64,000 bases of DNA from Candidatus Nitrosotenuis aquarius (GTDB taxonomy: Archaea > Thermoproteota > Nitrososphaeria > Nitrososphaerales > Nitrosopumilaceae), in NCBI RefSeq assembly GCF_002787055.1, contig NZ_CP024808.1:248001-312000 (forward strand), written 5' to 3'. Shown here one piece after another: positions 4,802 through 27,615 of the stretch. Both the position numbers and the translations under genes were made by a program. The stretch's first letter is position 1, and every line of letters starts with the position of its first letter. The notes below the pieces were generated by a model. The model was given only the letters and a program-made list of their open reading frames with translations, was not told the origin of the DNA and ran no database searches.

Positions 4802-5755
4802 ATGTTCCCCTTGGCTCAACGATCCATGAGTTTTCTTTCCATACAAAATCTAAATGCAGTTTATCCAACCGAACAAGGGCCTGTCCGGGCGGTGCAGGAT
4901 GTCTCTTTTTCTATCAATCCGGGTGAATCAGTGGGCATAGTAGGCGAGAGCGCATGCGGCAAAAGCACGCTTGGCCTATCCATAATTAGGACCATTCCTG
5001 GCGGCAAAATAGAGTCAGGCAATGTCATCCTAGAAGGCAAATCTATTTTGGATCTGTCTGATGCCGAGTTTGACTCGCAATACCGATGGAAGAAAATATC
5101 CATGATATTCCAGGGGGCAATGAACTCACTGGATCCAGTATACACAATATCGCAGCAATTCTCAGACATTCAAAGACAGCACCAATCCAATGACCGAGAA
5201 ATAATCCGGTCATTATTGTCCCAAGTCGGCCTCGACGAATCCATATTATCAAAATATCCGCACGAGCTCTCAGGCGGAATGAAGCAGAGAATAGTAATAG
5301 CAATGGCATTACTACTAAAACCAAGGCTAGTCATTGCAGATGAGCCGACAACTGCGCTGGATGTTCTGGTGCAGTCCCAAATTCTAAATCTGTTCAAGTC
5401 GCTAAAAAAGCAAGGAGTATCGTTTGTGGTAATATCGCATGACCTGGCGGTAATATCCGAGGTCTGCGAAAAAATAGGAATCATGTATGCTGGTCAGATG
5501 GTAGAGTTTGGCACAGCAAAGCAGATTCTGCAAAATCCAAGACACCCATATACGCAGGCGCTAATCAAGTCAATTCCAAGGTTGCACGATTCGCAAAAGC
5601 CGCAATACATCACGGGATCCCCGCCGGGACTAGTAAACCCAAAGCCCGGCTGCCGGTTTGCGTCAAGATGTAATCGTGTGATGGACAAGTGTGCCCTGGA
5701 TCCAAAATACACCAAGACAGAATCAGGATACGTGCAGTGCTGGCTCTATGAATAA
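4802..5755 (+). CDS. Oligopeptide-type ABC transporter ATPase (OppD/DppD-like), orphan
   Basis: 317-aa ABC ATPase. Walker A GESACGKST near residue 49, Q-loop FQGAMNSLDPVY, signature LSGGMKQR, Walker B LVIADEPTTALD and H-loop SHDLAV are all intact. The C-terminus has the oligopeptide/nickel-family extension: HPYTQALIKSIPRL, GSPPGLVNPKPGCRFASRC and two later Cys, a possible Fe-S or zinc knot seen in OppD proteins. ATG 4802 may be replaced by ATG 4826 (MSFLSIQNLNA). The family normally sits with two permeases and a second ATPase, but none is near, so its partner must lie elsewhere or it has another job. Confidence 0.9.
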   Translation: MFPLAQRSMSFLSIQNLNAVYPTEQGPVRAVQDVSFSINPGESVGIVGESACGKSTLGLSIIRTIPGGKIESGNVILEGKSILDLSDAEFDSQYRWKKISMIFQGAMNSLDPVYTISQQFSDIQRQHQSNDREIIRSLLSQVGLDESILSKYPHELSGGMKQRIVIAMALLLKPRLVIADEPTTALDVLVQSQILNLFKSLKKQGVSFVVISHDLAVISEVCEKIGIMYAGQMVEFGTAKQILQNPRHPYTQALIKSIPRLHDSQKPQYITGSPPGLVNPKPGCRFASRCNRVMDKCALDPKYTKTESGYVQCWLYE

Positions 5756-6120
5756 TTTTTCACAATAGGCAAGCACGAGTCAATAATTCGGAGCATCTCT
5801 GATCGTATGACTTTTTTGTCAATTGAAACCCAAACTCGATGCTTTCCAACCGCAAACGATATTGTCTGGACCTTTTTGCGCTCTTCCCACACGAACTGGA
5901 CCTCGCCCAGACTCTTGTCGAACTTTGCCTCCATGTCTGTTTTTATCGCTATATGAGCAAACTGATTCTTTGTAGCAGTAGAATCCAAAAGTGGAGTCAT
6001 GTGCTCCCTTCTCTTGTATGCCAAAAGTTCCCCGTTTGTGTTGATTATTCCCACAAACCGGATGTAGGGGCTAATTAGCGAAATTTTGTTGCAGATTTCT
6101 TCCAGCTTTTTTGCAGTCAT
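5746..6120 (-). CDS. DUF6659-like thaumarchaeal protein (paralog A)
   Basis: 124 aa, no membrane helix. Shares with the proteins at 45969 and 53138 the layout: helix, IRFVGIINTNGELLA hairpin, TPLL, a helix ending FDKSLGEVQFVWEERKKV, and a closing ISFAVGKHRVWVSI strand. The GxINxxGxLxA hairpin recalls roadblock/profilin-like sensory folds. I believe the family is the one catalogued as DUF6659, common in ammonia-oxidising archaea. Function unknown. Compared with the other two, this copy is divergent (LAYKRRE in place of VAGGFKKG). It overlaps the convergent ABC ATPase stop by 10 nt. Confidence 0.65.
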   Translation of the reverse strand: MTAKKLEEICNKISLISPYIRFVGIINTNGELLAYKRREHMTPLLDSTATKNQFAHIAIKTDMEAKFDKSLGEVQFVWEERKKVQTISFAVGKHRVWVSIDKKVIRSEMLRIIDSCLPIVKNYS

Positions 6121-12179: not shown

Positions 12180-13087
12180 CGAGTCCAGCTGTATCCCCTG
12201 CTTGTCAAAAGCTTGGCATGATCCAGCTTGAACTTGTCGTTGCATCGAAGGCACAGGTATTCCAATAGAATCTCGGCAAATATCTCACCGCATCCGTTGC
12301 ACGAGTACATGTTTTCCTGAACCCGATAATCCACACCAAAAACCTTGATCAATTCGTGACATTTGGGGCATTTGTCGTCTGTATATGTGGAAGAAGAGGT
12401 GACGTTTCCGCATTTGTAGTGCTCTATGATTTTGTCTTGCTTAAAGTTGGTGCCCCTACATTTGGGACAGTGAAATGTCTGCGCCACCCGCACGGAGCTA
12501 CATCTTGGACATGCAACCTCCTTTATGTCGTCTATTTGTAGTATTTTTTTGTCTGCAATCAGTTTTTTTATTATTGGTGTAACTTCTTGTTCATCTTTTC
12601 CTGTTTGCTGTTGGATTCTCAAAAGGCTGATCTGAGTCGAGCTTGAGAGCAGTTTTTCAATCAGCTCGCTTGTCCCAGCATCTATGCCTTGGGTTTCTTC
12701 CATTTTGAGCGTCTCTATTATCTCTTTGATATTTTCTAGTCTGATTGGCTTTGGCAGATATTGGTATGCGCCTTGGGCAATCACATCTTTTATGGAATCT
12801 TCCGTTTTCTCACGTGCTGTTTCTATGATGATTTTGACGTCGGGTCTGATGGTGAGCATCTGTGTCATAATGGAATATCCAGTCATGTCTGGCAGGTTGT
12901 AATCTAGAAACACCAGCGGGACCTTGTTTGATTCTACTAGTTCCTTAAACGACTCTATTCCGGTTTTGCCGTTTTGACAATGATGGATTTTTTTGAGTCC
13001 TAATTTGTTTAGAAATTCTTTGAGCAAAATGCCGACTGCTGGACTGTCTTCTATAATTAGTATGTCTTTGTCTTCTATTGCCGACAT
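12176..13087 (-). CDS. Response regulator with zinc-ribbon output domain
   Basis: Start set at ATG 13085-13087 (MSAIEDKDILIIEDSPAVG); a longer frame to 13222 would run into the divergent ATPase gene. The 303 aa comprise a receiver domain (1-120; acidic DILIIEDS, phospho-Asp VFLDYNLPDMTG, Lys LPKPIRL), a helical linker with a winged-helix-like segment (SLLRIQQQTGKDEQEVTPIIKKLI), and a C-terminal multi-zinc module with pairs CPRC, CPKC, CPKC, CNGC and CLRC ending RGYSWTR. This resembles the thaumarchaeal output domain named TackOD1. The inferred role is a DNA- or protein-binding response. Confidence 0.85.
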   Translation of the reverse strand: MSAIEDKDILIIEDSPAVGILLKEFLNKLGLKKIHHCQNGKTGIESFKELVESNKVPLVFLDYNLPDMTGYSIMTQMLTIRPDVKIIIETAREKTEDSIKDVIAQGAYQYLPKPIRLENIKEIIETLKMEETQGIDAGTSELIEKLLSSSTQISLLRIQQQTGKDEQEVTPIIKKLIADKKILQIDDIKEVACPRCSSVRVAQTFHCPKCRGTNFKQDKIIEHYKCGNVTSSSTYTDDKCPKCHELIKVFGVDYRVQENMYSCNGCGEIFAEILLEYLCLRCNDKFKLDHAKLLTSRGYSWTR

Positions 13088-13132
13088 TGTTTTTTTGATT
13101 TCTATCTGGTATGAAAAGTTTAGTTTGTAGTT

Positions 13133-14992
13133 ATGGTTAATAGTGCCAGAGTGTCTTGTGGACTTGTGCCAAAAATAGTTGCAGACACCAGCGTAATAAT
13201 TAATGGCTATATAACAAAACAACTAGAGTCAAAGTCAATACGTGACGATCTGATAATTCCCATGGCTGCACTGGATGAGCTGCAGGCGCAAGCCTCACAG
13301 GGAAAAGAGCAAGGCTTTGTAGGCTTGGAGGAAATAAAAAAAATCCAAAAACTGTGCCAACAAAACAACATCCCAATCCAGTTTGTAGGCCAACGACCAG
13401 GCCTTGATGACATACGTCTTGCAAAACATGGACGAATTGACGCAATCATAAAGGACGTAGCAAAACAACAATCTGCAACACTGTACACGGCGGATTATGT
13501 GCAGGGCTTGACTGCAGAAGCAGAGGGAATTTCAGTATTCTATCAAAGGCCGGAAAAAATAACCTCAAGCCTTGAGTTTTTGCGATTCTTTGACAACACG
13601 ACAATGAGCGTTCACCTAAAGGAAAACAACCCCCCTTTTGCCAAAAAGGGAAGGCCAGGCGCATTTGATCTAGTCAAAATAGAAGAAAAAATACTCGATG
13701 AGCAATACTTGGAATTGATCACCACGCAAATTCTGGAAGCAAGCAAAATATCAAACGCCGGAACAATAGAAATATCCAAATCCGGCGCCCTAGTCATACA
13801 GTATGCAGACTATCGAATAGCAATAACTAGACCGCCGTTCTCGGAATCACACGAAATCACCATAGTACATCCCACCACAAAAATGGCACTGGACCAGTAT
13901 GGCTTGTCTGAAAAACTAATGGATAGGCTTTCAGACCAGGCGGAAGGAATAATCATTTCTGGGCCTCCAGGATCTGGCAAAAGCACCCTGGCATCAAGCA
14001 TTGCAAACTTTTATGCCGCAAAGGGAAATGTGGTAAAAACATTCGAGTCACCGCGAGACCTCCAAGTCGACAAAAATGTAACTCAATACACCAAGCTGGA
14101 GGGAAGCTTTGAGAATTCAGCAGATATTTTGTTGCTAGTCAGGCCGGATTACACAATATTTGATGAAGTGCGACAAAGGGATGACTTTAGGGTGTTTGCC
14201 GACTTGAGGCTTGCAGGGGTGGGAATGGTCGGCGTGGTTCATGCAAACATGCCTCTTGATGGAATACAGAGGTTTATTGGCAAAATAGAGCTCGGGATGA
14301 TCCCAAGCGTAATTGACACTGTAGTGTTTGTAAAAGACGGAAGCATTGCCAAAGTCTATGATTTGGAATTAAAAGTCAAGGTGCCATCAGGAATGGTTGA
14401 ACAAGACTTGGCAAGGCCTGTAATAGAGATTGCAGACTTTGAGACCGGCACACTAGAATATGAAATCTATACTTTTGGAGAAGAAAACGTAATTGTTCCG
14501 GTAACGGAAGGCACAGAAACCAAGTCTGGCGTTTACAAGCTAGCTACAGAAAAAATCAAAGAAACAATACGACGATTTGATCCAAATCCGCAAATCGAGG
14601 TCCTATCGGACAACAATGTTAGAATCAAAGTAAAAAAAGACGCAATTCCGTCACTGATAGGAAAGGGCGGCACTACCATTAATGAGATGGAAAAGATACT
14701 GCATGTTCACATCGATGTGCAGGAAAAAGACTCACAAGAACCGTTCTCAGAGGGTTCCGGACATGGAATATCGTTTGATTTTTCCGAATCAAAAAACACT
14801 TTGCTCTTTGAGGTAAACAAGCGTTACAGCGGACAGCTTGCAGAACTATACGTCAAAGACCAATATGTGACAACGGCAAGAGTTGCTAGACACGGAAAAA
14901 TCAAACTATCCAAGCGTTCCGATGCGGGAAAGGCATTATCACGATCGGCTTTTTCAAAAAACGATATTGATATTATGATTAAAGATTCTTGA
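13133..14992 (+). CDS. PIN-ATPase-KH protein (archaeal PilT-family ATPase)
   Basis: 619 aa. An N-terminal PIN domain (IVADTSVIINGYI about 15-27, later DDIRLAKHGRIDAIIKDVA and YTADY) is fused to a VirB11/PilT-type ATPase with Walker A SGPPGSGKST near residue 278, FDEVRQRDDFRVFADLRLAG and a VVHANMPLDGIQRFIGK switch. A C-terminal KH domain has the GxxG loop IPSLIGKGGTTINEMEKIL near residue 507. This layout is widespread in archaea as a single-copy gene, thought to act on RNA, with the PIN part as nuclease. The acidic PIN residues look intact. The 3' end overlaps the DtxR-like gene by 14 nt. Confidence 0.9.
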   Translation: MVNSARVSCGLVPKIVADTSVIINGYITKQLESKSIRDDLIIPMAALDELQAQASQGKEQGFVGLEEIKKIQKLCQQNNIPIQFVGQRPGLDDIRLAKHGRIDAIIKDVAKQQSATLYTADYVQGLTAEAEGISVFYQRPEKITSSLEFLRFFDNTTMSVHLKENNPPFAKKGRPGAFDLVKIEEKILDEQYLELITTQILEASKISNAGTIEISKSGALVIQYADYRIAITRPPFSESHEITIVHPTTKMALDQYGLSEKLMDRLSDQAEGIIISGPPGSGKSTLASSIANFYAAKGNVVKTFESPRDLQVDKNVTQYTKLEGSFENSADILLLVRPDYTIFDEVRQRDDFRVFADLRLAGVGMVGVVHANMPLDGIQRFIGKIELGMIPSVIDTVVFVKDGSIAKVYDLELKVKVPSGMVEQDLARPVIEIADFETGTLEYEIYTFGEENVIVPVTEGTETKSGVYKLATEKIKETIRRFDPNPQIEVLSDNNVRIKVKKDAIPSLIGKGGTTINEMEKILHVHIDVQEKDSQEPFSEGSGHGISFDFSESKNTLLFEVNKRYSGQLAELYVKDQYVTTARVARHGKIKLSKRSDAGKALSRSAFSKNDIDIMIKDS

Positions 14993-20832: not shown

Positions 20833-20906
20833 GGATCTGACATTTGACTTGTATTATTTATGTGGATCAATTCGATATCAAATCTTTACTAAAAGGGGGA
20901 TTTTTC

Positions 20907-20918
20907 ACCCTTAAACTA
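20907..20918 (+). repeat. 12-bp inverted repeat, left end of island
   Basis: CACCCTTAAACT here is the exact reverse complement of 27555-27566. The two copies lie just outside the first and last island genes. A local AAGGG...CCCTT pair also exists around this copy, so part of the match may reflect a hairpin or promoter element. Confidence 0.45.
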
Positions 20919-21006
20919 GAGATTTTGTATATGTTGATAACTTGTAATTTTATTCATAATCTGACTTGTTGAAATCAAAAATTCACTCACGTACTAATTT
21001 GTATAT

Positions 21007-21840
21007 CTAATTTGGATTTTCAGTATGGTGTCCACCTATCAACGTGTATATGCGATCAGGATAGTGGCAGACTATGTTGAAACGTGTTTGAATCTCTTTT
21101 GTCACTAGATCAGATTCTGCCCCTCTCCACACGTATGGTGAGAAAAACCCTGAGTCACATGATGCTAACAAAAATGAATAATTCTGCTGTTTGCAAAAAT
21201 TATCTTTGGCAGTAATTACTTCTGCCAGTACTCGTTGATCAGGTGCATTTGGATATTTTCTCATAAAACGTTCAATTTGTTTGAATTCCAATTCGACCTG
21301 AGAATAATGTGCATAAAATGCTTCATCTTTCTGTTCATCTTTCCAGTTTGGTGCCGTGTCGGTAGGTTTTGCTCGATCCTTTGTTTGTTGTAATCTTTTG
21401 TATTTTTGATTATATTGTGGATAAAGTGTATGCTTGATGTACTTGGCCATGCTATCGACCTTTTTGAGATTTCTTTGAACTTCATGTTCTGGTAGTCTTA
21501 CATGGATTACGCTTGCCAATAATGCTCTCATTTTGTAGTCGCATGAATTTATGATTGCAACCGCTTTTTCAAAAAATATTCTACGTAGCGAAATATTCAT
21601 TTTATTATTGCCGATAAAAACATCTTTTACTGCTCTTGATAATACCAAAAATGCTTCTGATTTAACTCTGGGTACGATAATGCCTAATTTGTCCTGTTGT
21701 CTTTTTCTAAAAACACTGAACAGCCGTCTTGACTGATCATAATATTGATGTTTTATCGGAATATTTTGTTCCCTGACGTTTGCAATTATACTAGCTGCAA
21801 CAATAACATTAGTGTCAATTGCTACCTTCGGATTCTGCAA
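21007..21840 (-). CDS. PIN-domain nuclease-like protein
   Basis: 277 aa. Motif 1 is VAIDTNVIVAASI (Asp 8), then VKSEAFLVLSRAV with the second acidic residue (about 60), a late DQRVLAEVITAKD (about 205-217) and LLASCDSGFFSPY (about 225), giving the Asp/Glu set of PIN ribonucleases. A charged helical insertion rich in Lys, Gln and Tyr (about 120-190) makes it twice the size of VapC toxins. The ATG lies inside the end of the upstream gene (26-nt overlap), the classic arrangement of toxin-antitoxin pairs. It is the last gene of the island. Target and toxicity are inferred only. Confidence 0.7.
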   Translation of the reverse strand: MQNPKVAIDTNVIVAASIIANVREQNIPIKHQYYDQSRRLFSVFRKRQQDKLGIIVPRVKSEAFLVLSRAVKDVFIGNNKMNISLRRIFFEKAVAIINSCDYKMRALLASVIHVRLPEHEVQRNLKKVDSMAKYIKHTLYPQYNQKYKRLQQTKDRAKPTDTAPNWKDEQKDEAFYAHYSQVELEFKQIERFMRKYPNAPDQRVLAEVITAKDNFCKQQNYSFLLASCDSGFFSPYVWRGAESDLVTKEIQTRFNIVCHYPDRIYTLIGGHHTENPN

Positions 21841-22348
21841 CGATTATTTCTTGATCTTCTGGTATATCTAAGGTTTTCATTAACTCTGTGAAGTTGGTCT
21901 TCCATGTATCGGTATTTATTAATTCCTTATTGGCTTCTGGTTTTTCAATTAGATTAGTACTTACAGCTTTGTTTCTGAGGTCAATGATTTTTCTTAACAT
22001 GTTATCTATAGAAGATCGGCTTATTGTACTTGATTCTGCAATATCAAGAATATTTTTAATAGTTGGAAATAGAATTAATGAGTCTTCTGCAATTTTTGGA
22101 TTGTCTTTCATTATTTGTGAATTTTTGAATCTATCTTCCACTCTATCTAAAATTAATTCTACGTTTCGTGCAGCTTGATAAAAGTAAAAGCTATCATTAT
22201 TTGGATTTTCTAACCATTTGGCTTGGATTTGGTTTATTGTTTCACGTAGCTTCTTGAAGAGATTTAGGATAGAAAGATCTACTTTACCCGTGTTTTCCAT
22301 ACTATTTAGTGAATCTTCAATCTCTTGAAATAAGTGGGGATTCGTCAT
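21815..22348 (-). CDS. Helical partner of the PIN protein (putative antitoxin or adaptor)
   Basis: 177 aa, almost wholly alpha-helical: MTNPHLFQEIEDSLNSMEN, then FKKLRETINQIQAKW, a YFYQAARNVELILDRVEDRF helix, and MLRKIIDLRNKAVSTN. The C-terminus is acidic (DIPEDQEIIVAESEGSN). No DNA-binding motif is obvious. A TATA-like CAATATAATAG lies about 30 nt before its ATG, suggesting its own leaderless promoter and one message with the PIN gene, which it overlaps by 26 nt. The arrangement suggests a PIN partner. No family is recognised. Confidence 0.6.
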   Translation of the reverse strand: MTNPHLFQEIEDSLNSMENTGKVDLSILNLFKKLRETINQIQAKWLENPNNDSFYFYQAARNVELILDRVEDRFKNSQIMKDNPKIAEDSLILFPTIKNILDIAESSTISRSSIDNMLRKIIDLRNKAVSTNLIEKPEANKELINTDTWKTNFTELMKTLDIPEDQEIIVAESEGSN

Positions 22349-22533
22349 TGGGGATCTACTACCTTTTTCCTGCTATTATATTGTTTTTCAAATAGATAAG
22401 GCACACCATCAATATTCACACCTGATATTAAACAAAATTACCAACTATTATTTGGGCTTTCATTAGACTATTTTAAGATTAAGCAACACTAATCCCTTTG
22501 AGTGTTCAAAACGCACAACATTGAATCGCATGT

Positions 22534-25500
22534 TCATACTTTACGTGCCTCTATGAAAGTAAATGTTCCATTTTCGTAATCTTCGTAGATCTCAAAACCT
22601 TCCTGCTGTAGGAATTGACGTATTTCTTTCAATCTACCATTAACTGCATGTGATGTTTCTGAAATGAAAAGAAAGCCATTGGTAGCTAGGCATCTTCTTG
22701 CTTCTTTAATGTAGTCTTGCCAATTTCTACTCATTAGAGAAAGAGAAAACACTATGACATCCAAGCTCCCGTCGTGTAATGGAACTGATTGTAGATCACA
22801 AGAAGTAATTCTTTCGCTAATAGCAACATGATCAAAACTGTGGACCCTGTCTCCTACTGATTCCATGATCATTGCCTCTCCACATCCAAAGTCACCAATC
22901 TCGAGTCTTGGTGATAGCTCATTGAGTCGTTTTATCCAATGTTCGTATGGAATGATGCTCCAAGTTTTTCTCGCCTCACGATATTGTCTATGATATTCCA
23001 ACCACTCTTCAGGATTTTTTAAGAATCTAGCATGGGTTGTTTCAGAATTTTCAGTGTTGATCCTTTGATTAAACTTCTCAAAATCTCCATACTTTTTGAT
23101 ACGTTGCTCTACTTGAACCGTAGAAAGTTCCACGTTAAGATCAGGTCTCCTTACAGTAGATATTTCGCCCCTTTCCAGTCGTTCAAGCCATCTAACAGCT
23201 TCTGTTGTAGCCTGTTCTGGTGAGATTAGATTCTTTTCAGGAAGTCTGCCGTCTACAGCACAGTCAGCAAGTGTTTTCTTGAATTTTATTCTGTCAAGCT
23301 TGAGCTGATCATACGGATAACCAGCTATGCTAGCTTTAATGATGTACACATGAACGACATCTTTTATTTGACCACGTCTAACCAATCTTCCAAGTATCTG
23401 TTGATATTGTGCGTTAGTCCAAGGTAATGTGTTCAAGATTAATCGATTACAGATCTCCTGTAATCCGTCTATTCCCGTAGAGATTGGTCTTGATGCAATC
23501 AACACTTGTACTTTTCTAGCAAGAAATTGCTTGAGACCGCTATGATCAGAGCCAGTATGACGAGCAAATGAATAGCCTGCATCACGTACCGCTAGTGATA
23601 TTTTTTCTATTATTTTTTCAACATATTCAGTATAGATTATCGTTTGACCTTCGATTAACTTGACAATTTCAGGTATTCTGGAATCTGTCAGAATTTGTTC
23701 TATTGATAACGGGTTACTTTTCAGCTGCTGTATTGTAATATTTGATGGTCGTGGAACTTCGACATCAACAGTTTTTGTATCTAATTGTATTGGATATTCA
23801 GGTAATTCTCTAATTGAAACATTGGATAACTTTTCGTACAGAGTTACAGCATTTGGAATAGTCGGTCTGGTTGCAACATCATCAAAGACTTTACCTGTGA
23901 TGAGTTCTAAGAGCGATCTCCCTTCTTGAAGATTATTTACTACTGGAGTTGCAGATATTCCAAGAACCTTCAAGTTTGGATTTCTTTTTCGTAATTCGGT
24001 CATCAAACCATCCAAATTCTGTCTCCTTGCACTTACATTAGCGTCTCGAATCTTTGAGAAATGAATCTCATCAAGTACTACAAAATCCACTTTCTGTTGT
24101 GCCAAGTTAGAAATGAGATTTGGTGAATAGGGCTGATTGAATTTATCATAGTTGAGAATTGCGTATTTGTATTTTGTCTCATCATATTTTACAAAAAACG
24201 AGTCTTTCCCAGATATTATCTCTGAATTAGGAAAGATTTCTAGTGTTTGATCTTTCCAGTGTTCTACCACATTATTAGGGCACACTATGACAGTGAGTCT
24301 GCTGTCTAATACACGGCTTGACAGTACTGCAGACAGAGTCTTCCCAGAGCCAGTTCCAGAAAAATTCCCAAATGAATTTTCTCGAGTCATCTTGTATGCA
24401 ACGTATAATTGCATTAAAAGAGGTGACTTTGGAAACGAATATTCTTCTGGAATTTGCAAATTTTTCATTCCATTGTAATCGGTCAGGAAGGTTTGAACTA
24501 CTTCATCATGAAATTTGTTCCCGTTTGTACCCTCATTTTTTATCTTGTTGACAGTTTCCATTTCATTCCTGAAGGCGTTTTTCCAGAGCTGGGCAAGTGA
24601 ATAATTGACATAGAATTTCATAGCTTCTTCATCCACGTTAATTGATTCGAGAAAACTTGTGTGTTTGAAGATGTTTTCTACGGATTCAACTGGTTTGTAT
24701 TCAAGAGGGTCTGAATCATCAATTAGATCCGCCAATTCTTCAATATTTGCAGCAGAAATTTCTTCATTGGTATCAGCCATGGGTGAATTGATTTCTATTA
24801 TCTGTGAAAAATCTGGAGGTAACTCATAATCTGAATTTACATAATCTTCTATAGCCTCCCTGCCAGCTTTTGTTTTGATAGCTTTAAGCATATCTTTAAA
24901 AAATTGATTATGTCTGTTACCTTCTCCGAGATTCAATAATCCCTTTCGATTGAGAAATGAATAGAGTACAGCTTCATCCCATTGGTAAATTATGCCGCTT
25001 TCAATCAATCCTTTCAAAAGGGATTTTATTTTATCAACAGACCAGCGACCATCGTCGTCTTTCCCGAGCCAATCTGTATAGCTGATCCATTGATCTCGGT
25101 AGGTCGCCTGAGGATTTCCGGGGATGTTTGAAGGTCGTTTTGTGCGTGAATAGTTGTACCATTCAGTAGCATTTTTGAGATTAAGGGATCTCACGAACTT
25201 TCTAGCATCATCGAACGGTAAGAATTTTCTATTCTGATGTGCTACTGTGAAAGTACCGAGCCAATCGCCAAAACCCCGCCATTCTTTTCTGTAAGTGTTA
25301 TTTGGATTTCCTGGGATATCGATTGGTCTGGCTCCGGATTTTGACCATTCTTTCCATTCTCTTCCATTTTTTAGTCCGAGTTTTCTTGCGAATTCCCTCG
25401 CATCCTTGAATGAACGATATTTTCTTTTGCTTGGTGCTATTGCGTTTGTACCTAGCCAATCGCCAAGACCTTTCCACTCACTTCCATAGACTAACTCAGG

Positions 25501-26214
25501 AGTAGATGGTATGTCTGGTGGTTTTTTACCAGATTTTTTCCATTCTTTCCACTCAATGTTATTTTTTAAACCTAAACTATGAATGAATTGTTTTGCTTCC
25601 TCATATGATCGAAGTTTTCCAAATTTATTTCGTTGAGGATAAAAATTAGTCCAATCCGACCAGCCATTCCAAGTGTCCTTGTAAACTTTATTTGGATGGC
25701 GAGGGATATGTGCAGGTCTTTTACCAGAATCACAAAAAGAGTGCCAAGATAGAGAACCAGATAATTTGAGAGTGTGAACATATTTCCTAGCATCTTCAAA
25801 ACTAAGAAATTTACCCTTACCGCCTTTTTTTGTTACTCCTAACCAATGTTTCCAGCCTTGCCAATTGCGTCTATATACCGTGTTGGGAGAGACTGGTATG
25901 TTTGCTGGTTTTTTACCTGAATTATAATATTTTCTCCATTCAGCTTCAGTGTTTAAGTTTAAACTCGAGACATACTTTCTTGCTTCATTAAATGGTAAAA
26001 ATTCCTGTGCTGAGTTTCTTTTTGCTGTGTATCCTAACCAGTCCTCAAAACCCTTCCATTCATTACGATAGACTTCATTTGGACTAGTTGGAATATCCCT
26101 TGGTTTTTTCCCTGATTGTGCGTACTTGATCCATTCTCTTGCTGATCCAAGCTTTAATGTTCGAACAAATCTTCTAGCATCATCAAAACTACGGTACGTC
26201 TTTTTCGCACACAA
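22534..26214 (-). CDS. Six-repeat / SF2 helicase / Rrp8-like methyltransferase fusion
   Basis: 1226 aa from TTG 26214, 25 nt after a TTTATACT box; an in-frame stop two codons upstream fixes the start region. Residues 7-382 are six repeats of about 64 aa. A helical linker follows. The SF2 (SNF2-like) helicase has Walker A GTGSGKT 620-626, DEIH 715-718, SATP 754-757, and motif VI QQILGRLVRRGQ 938-949. The C-terminal part (about 1060-1226) is a SAM methyltransferase: GDFGCGEA 1107-1114, SFDHVAIS, CDLQSVPL and VFSLSLM 1155-1161, the order and wording seen in Rrp8, a family that makes m1A in rRNA. All ATPase and SAM motifs look intact. The role is unknown; defence or element maintenance is inferred from the island. 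Confidence 0.85.
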   Translation of the reverse strand: MCAKKTYRSFDDARRFVRTLKLGSAREWIKYAQSGKKPRDIPTSPNEVYRNEWKGFEDWLGYTAKRNSAQEFLPFNEARKYVSSLNLNTEAEWRKYYNSGKKPANIPVSPNTVYRRNWQGWKHWLGVTKKGGKGKFLSFEDARKYVHTLKLSGSLSWHSFCDSGKRPAHIPRHPNKVYKDTWNGWSDWTNFYPQRNKFGKLRSYEEAKQFIHSLGLKNNIEWKEWKKSGKKPPDIPSTPELVYGSEWKGLGDWLGTNAIAPSKRKYRSFKDAREFARKLGLKNGREWKEWSKSGARPIDIPGNPNNTYRKEWRGFGDWLGTFTVAHQNRKFLPFDDARKFVRSLNLKNATEWYNYSRTKRPSNIPGNPQATYRDQWISYTDWLGKDDDGRWSVDKIKSLLKGLIESGIIYQWDEAVLYSFLNRKGLLNLGEGNRHNQFFKDMLKAIKTKAGREAIEDYVNSDYELPPDFSQIIEINSPMADTNEEISAANIEELADLIDDSDPLEYKPVESVENIFKHTSFLESINVDEEAMKFYVNYSLAQLWKNAFRNEMETVNKIKNEGTNGNKFHDEVVQTFLTDYNGMKNLQIPEEYSFPKSPLLMQLYVAYKMTRENSFGNFSGTGSGKTLSAVLSSRVLDSRLTVIVCPNNVVEHWKDQTLEIFPNSEIISGKDSFFVKYDETKYKYAILNYDKFNQPYSPNLISNLAQQKVDFVVLDEIHFSKIRDANVSARRQNLDGLMTELRKRNPNLKVLGISATPVVNNLQEGRSLLELITGKVFDDVATRPTIPNAVTLYEKLSNVSIRELPEYPIQLDTKTVDVEVPRPSNITIQQLKSNPLSIEQILTDSRIPEIVKLIEGQTIIYTEYVEKIIEKISLAVRDAGYSFARHTGSDHSGLKQFLARKVQVLIASRPISTGIDGLQEICNRLILNTLPWTNAQYQQILGRLVRRGQIKDVVHVYIIKASIAGYPYDQLKLDRIKFKKTLADCAVDGRLPEKNLISPEQATTEAVRWLERLERGEISTVRRPDLNVELSTVQVEQRIKKYGDFEKFNQRINTENSETTHARFLKNPEEWLEYHRQYREARKTWSIIPYEHWIKRLNELSPRLEIGDFGCGEAMIMESVGDRVHSFDHVAISERITSCDLQSVPLHDGSLDVIVFSLSLMSRNWQDYIKEARRCLATNGFLFISETSHAVNGRLKEIRQFLQQEGFEIYEDYENGTFTFIEARKV
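25063..26196 (-). repeat. Six tandem integrase-type protein repeats (coding)
   Basis: Within the fusion gene, six units of about 63-66 codons share the pattern s-F-x-x-A-R-x-F-V-x-x-L-x-L, then E-W, S-G-K-x-P-x-x-I-P-x-x-P-x-x-x-Y-x-x-x-W-x-G-x-x-D-W-L-G. The pattern matches what I know as the phage-integrase repeat unit (INT_rpt), found in multi-copy arrays in some recombinases and helicases. DNA-level identity among units is low, so the array is old. Confidence 0.8.
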
Positions 26215-26274
26215 TATTTTCTAGATCGTAATTTAGTATAAAACAGATCCTTTACAATAAGCAACAATTATTTG

Positions 26275-27126
26275 TTAATTAGCGGTTGCAATACCTTTTA
26301 GAATTACATTCAAATCTCTAGTTGACGCATAATCGTACTGTATCTCAATCTCGTTCTCAGTAAACACTTGATACCATCCTCCCGGATCTACAAATCCTTC
26401 AAAATATTCGTCAGGCGGAACCACTGGATCATATTCCTCTTTGTGAATTTCAACTAGCTTGACTTGGCAACAAGGACAGAGATTAGTTTCGGGCTCTTTT
26501 TCCAATTTTAGTTTGCCATATGATAAAGACCCAGTCCACACCAAACTCCTAAACCTCTTCTTGATACCACAATGCGATAACAAATAACAAAACGTCTGAA
26601 ATATCGAGTCTCGAGTTCCTTTGTATTTTATAAACCACCCATGTTTTTTTGCTACAATACCGATTCTTCCCTGAATTTCACCAAAGCAGACAAGATGAAA
26701 ATGAGGTGAGTAATAGTATTGCTTACGCTCAGGTTTCTTTAACCTAAATGGGTGGAATATGACAGCTGCTCCATAAACACCCAACTCTTTTGCAATCATG
26801 GTCTGTTTTTTCTTCAATTTCTTATACGGCAGACTATAATCAGATCGGGCTACACTCAGTACCAAATGAAATGGTTTCCTTTTTGACAGTCTAGCATACT
26901 TTTCAACTCTTCTTGTAGAACGATTAGACTGCCTGATAATCCATTGATAATAACAGATTTTACAAATTGGACGATAGCAGGAGCTTTTGAACTGTTTAAC
27001 AAATATTGTATCACCATAACCACGTTTTTTATGATTCATCGCATTAAGACAGCCTTTCTGTTTCCATATTCCACAATCACAATGTGGTTCATCTGTTGCA
27101 GGAAATCTCCAGCCATCATATTCCAT
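26275..27126 (-). CDS. HUH-type replication initiator (Rep)-like protein
   Basis: 283 aa. An N-terminal Cys-rich region (CDCGIWKQKGC, CYRPICKICYYQW) resembles the zinc-binding part of archaeal rolling-circle Reps. Three Rep motifs are in order: hydrophobic strand PFHLVLSV (about 82-90), HUH motif PHFHLVCFGE with both His (about 141-150), and FCYLLSHCG with the candidate catalytic Tyr near 180. A second CPCC motif (LCPCCQVK) occurs near 225. These proteins nick one strand to start plasmid or virus replication. It is 60 nt upstream of the fusion gene and 71 nt downstream of the integrase fragment. This suggests that the island descends from a replicating plasmid or virus. Confidence 0.7.
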   Translation of the reverse strand: MEYDGWRFPATDEPHCDCGIWKQKGCLNAMNHKKRGYGDTIFVKQFKSSCYRPICKICYYQWIIRQSNRSTRRVEKYARLSKRKPFHLVLSVARSDYSLPYKKLKKKQTMIAKELGVYGAAVIFHPFRLKKPERKQYYYSPHFHLVCFGEIQGRIGIVAKKHGWFIKYKGTRDSIFQTFCYLLSHCGIKKRFRSLVWTGSLSYGKLKLEKEPETNLCPCCQVKLVEIHKEEYDPVVPPDEYFEGFVDPGGWYQVFTENEIEIQYDYASTRDLNVILKGIATAN

Positions 27127-27197
27127 AGTTAGCCAGTTTGTACTAAGCTGTTGCTGTTCTACAAAACTTTGAATTGTAACCCTTGCGTGATACTTGT

Positions 27198-27548
27198 CTA
27201 GTTTTGAAGCTTGAAATTCAGTTTGCTCAGAGGGTTTCGATATAATCGCTTTATCTTGGGGAAATTCAGGATAACGTCATTCATGGAGGTAAATCCCTGA
27301 ATGGCACAAACTGCCATGTTTACGTAGCTTTTGCTTAGTCCTTTCTGCTTGATCTCGTAGACATAATCTTCAATCATGGTTTGTAGCTTCTTGGGCTCGA
27401 TCGATAAGATGGACTCGATTGTTCTTAACTTGTAGTGTTTTTGGAAGAGTTTAAGCTGGTAATCGTACTGTTTTTTGGTAGCTTGAGAGCCGATTGTGTC
27501 ATAAAAGATCCTCAGGGCTCTTGATTCAGGCATGGTTTTTGATACCAT
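27198..27548 (-). pseudogene. Integrase N-terminal fragment (SAM-like domain only)
   Basis: 116 aa beginning MVSKTMPESRALRIFYDTIG, with the helical SATKKQYDYQLKLFQKHYKL and GLSKSYVNMAVCAIQGFTSMNDVILNF segments typical of the N-terminal core-binding domain of thaumarchaeal tyrosine recombinases. The family is usually 300-400 aa; the catalytic domain with R-H-R-Y residues is absent, and only 71 nt separate its stop from the Rep gene. It is a remnant or a split-integrase N half. Met 6 (27533) may be the real start, since CTTAAACT lies about 27 nt upstream of it. The domain call is by pattern. Confidence 0.6.
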
Positions 27549-27554
27549 TACTAC

Positions 27555-27566
27555 AGTTTAAGGGTG
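27555..27566 (-). repeat. 12-bp inverted repeat, right end of island
   Basis: AGTTTAAGGGTG on the plus strand, the exact reverse complement of 20907-20918, lies 7 nt before the integrase fragment start. It may also contain the fragment's TATA-like element, which would explain part of the match. Confidence 0.45.
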
Positions 27567-27615
27567 GATCCTAGACAGTTTAATCTTTATTTGTGGGTAC
27601 CAAAACACCAAAAAC

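Follow-up and report, generated by a model that had tools for sequence, protein, structure and literature searches.

Gene and protein layout

The analysed stretch of DNA (the window) comprises 64,000 nucleotides of Candidatus Nitrosotenuis aquarius, positions 248,001 to 312,000 of contig NZ_CP024808.1. The minus strand of the window carries a gene whose intact open reading frame (ORF) encodes a single protein of 1226 amino acids (aa). From the N- to the C-terminus it consists of six INT_rpt repeats, a linker made of helices, a complete superfamily 2 (SF2) motor and an Rrp8-type methyltransferase. The frame extends from a TTG start codon at 26214 to a stop codon at 22534-22536, and the gene is single-copy in a genome assembled as one contig of 1.697 Mb. 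A first-pass annotation of the window had described the gene as a new-looking fusion. Its six-copy array of integrase-type repeats is found by Pfam as INT_rpt (PF14882) in six stretches (E 1.3e-23; 83.4 bits against a cut-off of 26.5), and the helicase motifs are complete at the residues given for them: GTGSGKT (620-626), DEIH (715-718), SATP (754-757) and QQILGRLVRRGQ (938-949). The locations of all parts are in Table 1.

Family and distribution

The core of linker, motor and methyltransferase is present in about 45 loci scattered over archaea and bacteria, a count made up of the loci from a genome scan, the window, three plasmids and genome G236, some of the loci sharing a draft genome or sitting on short contigs. 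The three-part layout is real and intact, as annotated, but it is not a one-off, and its retention in these loci rules out a chance or assembly-artefact fusion. The scan gave 41 loci, one of them (L064) only a distant helicase; besides Thaumarchaeota, they cover at least seven phyla of bacteria (Planctomycetota, Verrucomicrobiota, Chlamydiota, Cyanobacteriota, Actinomycetota, Chloroflexota and Thermodesulfobacteriota). On plasmids, tblastn identified one protein of Crinalium and two of Rhodococcus that match residues 391-1225 (526-1225 in one) with 33-37% identity and are annotated merely as 'zinc-ribbon domain-containing protein'. Together these loci define a protein family that crosses the domain boundary between archaea and bacteria.

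No core was found in the IMG/VR contigs and phage records searched, where the matches were to generic helicases or INT arrays only, and on these grounds descent of the core from a phage or virus was rejected. An all-against-all BLAST of 522 neighbour ORFs revealed no conserved operon partner. Integrases are the commonest neighbour family of the bacterial members, some of which also adjoin restriction-modification or PADLOC-listed proteins; there being no background rate for the latter, they are uninformative on defence-island context. Two members are incomplete. The Ktedonobacterial member L047 (complete genome, 9701-12142) has no detectable array and a long branch in the tree, and in L051 no methyltransferase was detected.

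The methyltransferase domain

The Rrp8 family, Pfam Methyltransf_8 (PF05148), covers residues 1042-1226 (E 8.6e-38; 130.8 bits against a cut-off of 27; profile positions 12-198 of 219). The sole solved structure matched by the protein sequence is 2zfu, human Rrp8/NML (E 1.6e-28, or 1.3e-49 with the family profile and 7e-30 for the methyltransferase). Foldseek superposes the predicted methyltransferase fold on 2zfu with a template modelling (TM) score of 0.79 to the target, a root-mean-square deviation (rmsd) of 2.3 Å and 33% identity. The lead-in at the N-terminus of Rrp8 is conserved too, and the motifs DFGCGE, FDHVAI and FSLSLM are retained across the family methyltransferases with small variations. 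None of the 30 methyltransferase regions examined contains [DNS]PP[YFWH], the motif found in amino-group DNA methylases. Both sequence and fold therefore bear out the Rrp8-like assignment of the domain, whose best match lies outside the DNA N6-adenine families.

The Rrp8 enzymes that have been characterised have ribosomal RNA (rRNA) as substrate, and the yeast Rrp8 mutant G209R is catalytically dead (PMC6085284). The glycine altered in this mutant presumably lies in the conserved motif I. Among 300 sampled Thermoproteota genomes, the strong full-length matches to the Rrp8 family are two of these fusions only; the remainder score less than 39 bits and are for the most part partial.

The motor domain

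Pfam detects ResIII (E 1.5e-7), Helicase_C (E 9.9e-7) and SNF2-rel_dom (25.1 bits against a cut-off of 24.9) in the motor, and its sequence-profile matches include Hel308, NPH-I, XPB and RapA. The core was modelled with AlphaFold2 from an alignment of 28 rows, three plasmid records being left out, with a predicted local distance difference test (pLDDT) score of 81 and a predicted TM score (pTM) of 0.71. In a Foldseek search of the PDB, the neighbours of the motor are Mot1, Ino80, Chd1, CSB, ISWI and the Sulfolobus (Sso) SWI2/SNF2 enzyme with double-stranded DNA (dsDNA). The motor thus combines SF2 motifs, seen in the motif alignment, with an SNF2 fold, the top PDB fold matches being SNF2 enzymes (E <= 1e-13). 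The motor motifs and those for S-adenosylmethionine (SAM) are nearly invariant across the loci of both domains of life. On its predicted fold, the motor belongs with the SWI2/SNF2 dsDNA translocases rather than with enzymes of the RNA-helicase type.

Exchange of the repeat array

Domain mapping places the array directly before the linker, where it consists of 3-8 INT_rpt units or 4-14 DUF4379 zinc treble-clef units, head-to-tail. INT_rpt arrays are found in the thaumarchaea and in some Chlamydiae; DUF4379 arrays, which most of the bacterial members have, occur in further Chlamydiae, in bacteria of other groups and in a single archaeal bin (L035). The N-termini of the Crinalium and Rhodococcus plasmid members are 4-7 DUF4379 repeats, not INT_rpt. 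In the core tree, which was made by a quick method and has long branches for L034 and L047, at least two changes between INT_rpt and DUF4379 are forced by the starred branches, and the Chlamydiota hold both types in sister clades. Two unrelated arrays in the same place before one effector constitute a natural domain swap, through which the reading of sequence by INT_rpt and DUF4379 becomes testable.

Several thaumarchaea have the array on separate ORFs that overlap at their ends, with five before the core in L027, five before and two after it in L028, and three after it in L034. The INT_rpt-only ORFs in series (L028:5663-9877 and 12558-14972; L027:1-4584) overlap by a few bases, and most end in a truncated unit ahead of the start of the following ORF. 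Those of L027 and L028 resemble translationally coupled array subunits.

Repeat arrays as possible readers of DNA

A hidden Markov model (HMM) built from the INT_rpt units of the protein gives 95-110 bits to each of these same units. The AlphaFold2 (AF2) model of three units has a pLDDT of 88 and four short helices per unit. It has no fold match in the PDB, and its pTM is low because the geometry from unit to unit is uncertain. INT_rpt units vary most at positions 20, 21, 24 and 25 and at 38, 39, 41 and 42, the starts of two helices. In the 14-unit DUF4379 array of L045, whose units are 67% identical, variation peaks at unit positions 48, 50, 51 and 57, and L053 is similar. These hypervariable positions are consistent across arrays (Kendall W 0.53 and 0.64), although ordinary surface variation would look alike. 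The pattern fits arrays that act as sequence readers, without being proof of it.

Both types of repeat accompany DNA-acting enzymes elsewhere. In the homing endonucleases of phage introns, DUF4379-like repeats stand ahead of EDxHD/Vsr nucleases and have been proposed to confer DNA specificity (PMC12350094). A neighbour gene of the family member in L041 (11922-14150, minus strand) has six DUF4379 units, which surround a weak REase_MTES_1575-like (Vsr/DUF559-like) stretch, and an I-TevI-type DNA-binding motif. INT_rpt repeats are joined to an Integrase_2 domain in one protein of a Pseudomonas plasmid, beside the GmtY recombinase and GmtX, and a large protein of an uncultured phage (L117:3287-5065) has an HNH-like motif and, after it, about five INT_rpt-like units, seen by eye where Pfam finds nothing. 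By analogy with these proteins, the repeat array is probably a reader of DNA. Were INT_rpt and DUF4379 arrays to read DNA unit by unit, in a TALE-like manner with each repeat recognising one or a few bases through variable residues, they would represent a new class of modular DNA-binding proteins.

Two further observations concern these repeats. In the Simkaniaceae bin L041, the DUF4379-array nuclease-like gene adjoins a family member that bears INT_rpt, with both array types side by side. In the thaumarchaeal genome G054, NUMOD3 motifs are interleaved with INT_rpt units (L110:2289-3056 and 5492-5890), another link to homing nucleases.

Substrate of the methyltransferase

The first-pass annotation had proposed an RNA-type modification. 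In such an enzyme, the array and motor would bind structured RNA (rRNA, transfer RNA (tRNA) or invader transcripts) and N1-methyladenine (m1A) would be installed in RNA, as it is by Rrp8 in 25S/28S rRNA. The methyltransferase belongs to a family characterised as an rRNA m1A enzyme and has conserved even the Rrp8 lead-in, both of which speak for an RNA substrate. The fold of the motor is of the SNF2/dsDNA type, however, and elsewhere the arrays accompany DNA homing nucleases and recombinases. Moreover, the core is rare, being present in 2 of 398 sampled Thermoproteota genomes, and so patchy an occurrence is ill-suited to a housekeeping rRNA enzyme. An RNA-directed enzyme is accordingly considered improbable. 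A SWI2/SNF2-type dsDNA translocase would make DNA the likelier substrate, and by analogy DNA is put forward with some confidence.

The mobile island

The gene is situated in a mobile island of five genes, which confirms the setting that had been suggested for it. In two relatives (G002 and G015), whose flanking proteins are 96-97% identical, the flanking genes are approximately 0.7 kb apart, against approximately 7.4 kb here. The blastn alignment to these relatives stops at window position 20888 and restarts at 27582, leaving a clean empty site in both genomes and an insertion of 6,693 bp in the window. No tRNA that could provide an attachment site was found in the window by ARAGORN.

Table 1. 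Features of the gene and of the island that contains it, in window coordinates.
Feature	Position	Strand	Evidence
Complete gene for 1226 aa, beginning with TTG: INT_rpt array, linker, SNF2-type motor, Rrp8-type methyltransferase	22534..26214	-	
Six head-to-tail INT_rpt units, 63-65 aa each	25039..26199	-	Pfam PF14882, own HMM, AF2 model
INT_rpt units, individually	26005-26199, 25813-26004, 25618-25812, 25423-25617, 25228-25422, 25039-25227	-	
Conserved helical linker, array to motor	24460..25044	-	Alignment, linker HMM, AF2 helices 3-194 of core
SF2 motor, SWI2/SNF2 type; Walker A GTGSGKT, DEIH, SATP and QxxGRxxR intact	23218..24438	-	Pfam, motif alignment, Foldseek
Rrp8-type SAM methyltransferase; DFGCGE, FDHVAI and FSLSLM motifs	22537..23091	-	PF05148 8.6e-38, 2zfu sequence and fold match
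Mobile island, 6,693 bp, contains the gene	20889..27581		Missing from syntenic site of G002 and G015; blastn junctions
Direct repeat AATCTTTA, 8 bp, left island edge	20881..20888	+	
Direct repeat AATCTTTA, 8 bp, right island edge	27582..27589	+	
Terminal inverted 12-mer, left copy CACCCTTAAACT	20906..20917	+	
Terminal inverted 12-mer, right copy AGTTTAAGGGTG (inverted)	27555..27566	+	
116-aa N-terminal fragment of tyrosine integrase, weak SAM-like match	27198..27548	-	PF02899 E 3.4e-4, just below cut-off
283-aa protein, HFH motif, Rep-like by eye only	26275..27126	-	No Pfam, PHROG or PDB match
177-aa protein, overlaps 277-aa gene	21815..22348	-	No match above cut-off (Pfam, PADLOC, PHROG)
277-aa protein, PIN-like VAIDTN motif at start by eye	21007..21840	-	No database match

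The 283-aa protein with the HFH motif has a paralogue with 48% identity at another site of this genome (G000:C1:422990-423835, L123). It is possibly an HUH Rep, and a second related element may be integrated at the site of the paralogue. The overlapping minus-strand genes for 277 and 177 aa (21007-22348), which are without a database match, could be a toxin-antitoxin pair.

A mobile setting is also that of P1 DarB, in the manner of which the methylase-motor of an element could mark the element's own DNA against host restriction. Phages and conjugative elements commonly carry dyads of SWI2/SNF2 and methylase, and the protection given by DarB acts in cis (PMC5512222). The family sits on plasmids and an island, and the helicase part of the window protein matches the phage helicase family phrog_62 (107 bits). 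DarB-type methylases are EcoKI/TaqI-like, whereas the enzyme here is Rrp8-like without a PP[YFWH] motif; methylation at N1 would hamper replication of the element's own DNA, and the phages searched have no core. Self-protection of this kind is therefore thought unlikely.

Proposed mechanism and role

The best reading is of a single-gene, array-guided SNF2 methyltransferase that would mark or damage adenines in selected DNA where mobile elements are in conflict with one another, a reading considered about as likely as not. The N-terminal array, INT_rpt or DUF4379 and of variable length, would bind a specific DNA sequence. The motor, SNF2-type by its predicted fold, would translocate along or remodel the bound duplex and present adenines; it would be needed because the N1 of adenine is buried in duplex DNA. 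The Rrp8-type domain would then methylate adenine; the likeliest position is N1, on the Watson-Crick face, where a methyl group would block base pairing. By analogy with Rrp8, N1 is a plausible choice of atom, if slightly short of the favoured side. Finally, the lesion or mark may silence or damage competing mobile DNA, or label the element's own. Interference with other DNA is tentatively suggested as the role.

The mobile setting counts in favour of this mechanism, with an island in the window, plasmids, and integrase neighbours in bacteria. So do the core shared by loci of both domains of life, the motor with its nearest fold neighbours among dsDNA translocases, the exchangeable arrays, with repeat types that accompany DNA enzymes elsewhere and with variation gathered at fixed unit positions, and an Rrp8-like enzyme without the amino-group methylase motif PP[YFWH]. 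Several points weigh against it. The whole family is known from sequence and predicted folds, from which its activity is deduced, and the substrate of characterised Rrp8 enzymes is rRNA (PMC6085284), which by analogy might hold here. The modelled INT_rpt unit is without a recognisable DNA-binding fold in the PDB. In any family, surface residues would be expected to vary at consistent positions, and such a pattern is no proof of a recognition code. Translocation by SNF2 motors usually leaves the strands paired (PMC5512222), and the class of motor alone does not explain how N1 would be exposed. In addition, L047 lacks a detectable array and L051 a methyltransferase.

A regulatory or domesticated role, in which the element itself is silenced sequence-specifically or controlled in copy number, would suit a single gene with no conserved partner or nuclease and arrays that could address a few sites. 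The spread over phyla and the repeated change of arrays would instead suggest a shifting external target, and the regulatory role is held to be very improbable. The array-guided mechanism in its most specific form is protein-guided N1-adenine DNA methylation: interchangeable arrays would steer an SNF2 motor and an Rrp8-derived enzyme that writes replication-blocking m1A into chosen mobile DNA. Such nuclease-free interference with a programmable reader is offered as a speculative proposal, and a doubtful one.

Comparison with known systems

PADLOC and NCBIfam give only weak helicase cross-matches to the protein, and PADLOC gives none to its island neighbours, so it was not assigned to a known defence system, and the function in defence or in guarding the element that the first-pass annotation had suggested is a conjecture. 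Restriction-modification was rejected, there being no nuclease domain in the protein (Pfam) and no recurrent neighbour family resembling a partner nuclease. DISARM resembles the family in that an SNF2-like helicase (DrmD) works with a methylase, and there are weak cross-matches to DrmD. These reach 33.5 and 32.4 bits against cut-offs of 950 and 610, and DISARM membership, for which DrmD would have to exceed its cut-off and be accompanied by DrmA and DrmB, was not accepted; the methylase is here of another family and fused, and the window island has no PADLOC-recognised partner. The DUF4379-array EDxHD/Vsr homing endonucleases and the INT_rpt proteins of gamma-mobile-trio islands have the same repeat families beside DNA-acting enzymes, but their effector is a nuclease or recombinase.

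The first-pass annotation knew of no described system with this set of domains. No description of an Rrp8-type enzyme on an SNF2 motor, or of INT_rpt or DUF4379 arrays with either, was found in the open-access literature (most subscription journals lie outside it). As far as could be checked in this literature, the family is real, conserved and undescribed.

The pairing of a methylase with SWI2/SNF2 is itself a described theme of polyvalent proteins, with P1 DarB as the archetype (PMC5512222), and the DarB-type dyads are the nearest kin. In common with DarB, a SWI2/SNF2-type motor and a SAM methyltransferase are united in one large mobile-element protein. The methylase of DarB is an EcoKI/TaqI-like DNA adenine methylase, N-terminal to the motor and with LPD36, while the one here is Rrp8-like and C-terminal, and an array comes first; the EcoKI/TaqI-like methylase with PP[YFW] that defines the DarB type was absent from the 30 methyltransferase regions. 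With Rrp8/nucleomethylin the family shares the methyltransferase domain (aligned by fold at 33% identity with an rmsd of 2.3 Å), its motifs and the N-terminal lead-in, but neither an SNF2 motor nor a repeat array is part of Rrp8. The family would extend Rrp8, known from ribosome maturation, to probable DNA modification in the mobile-element conflicts of prokaryotes.

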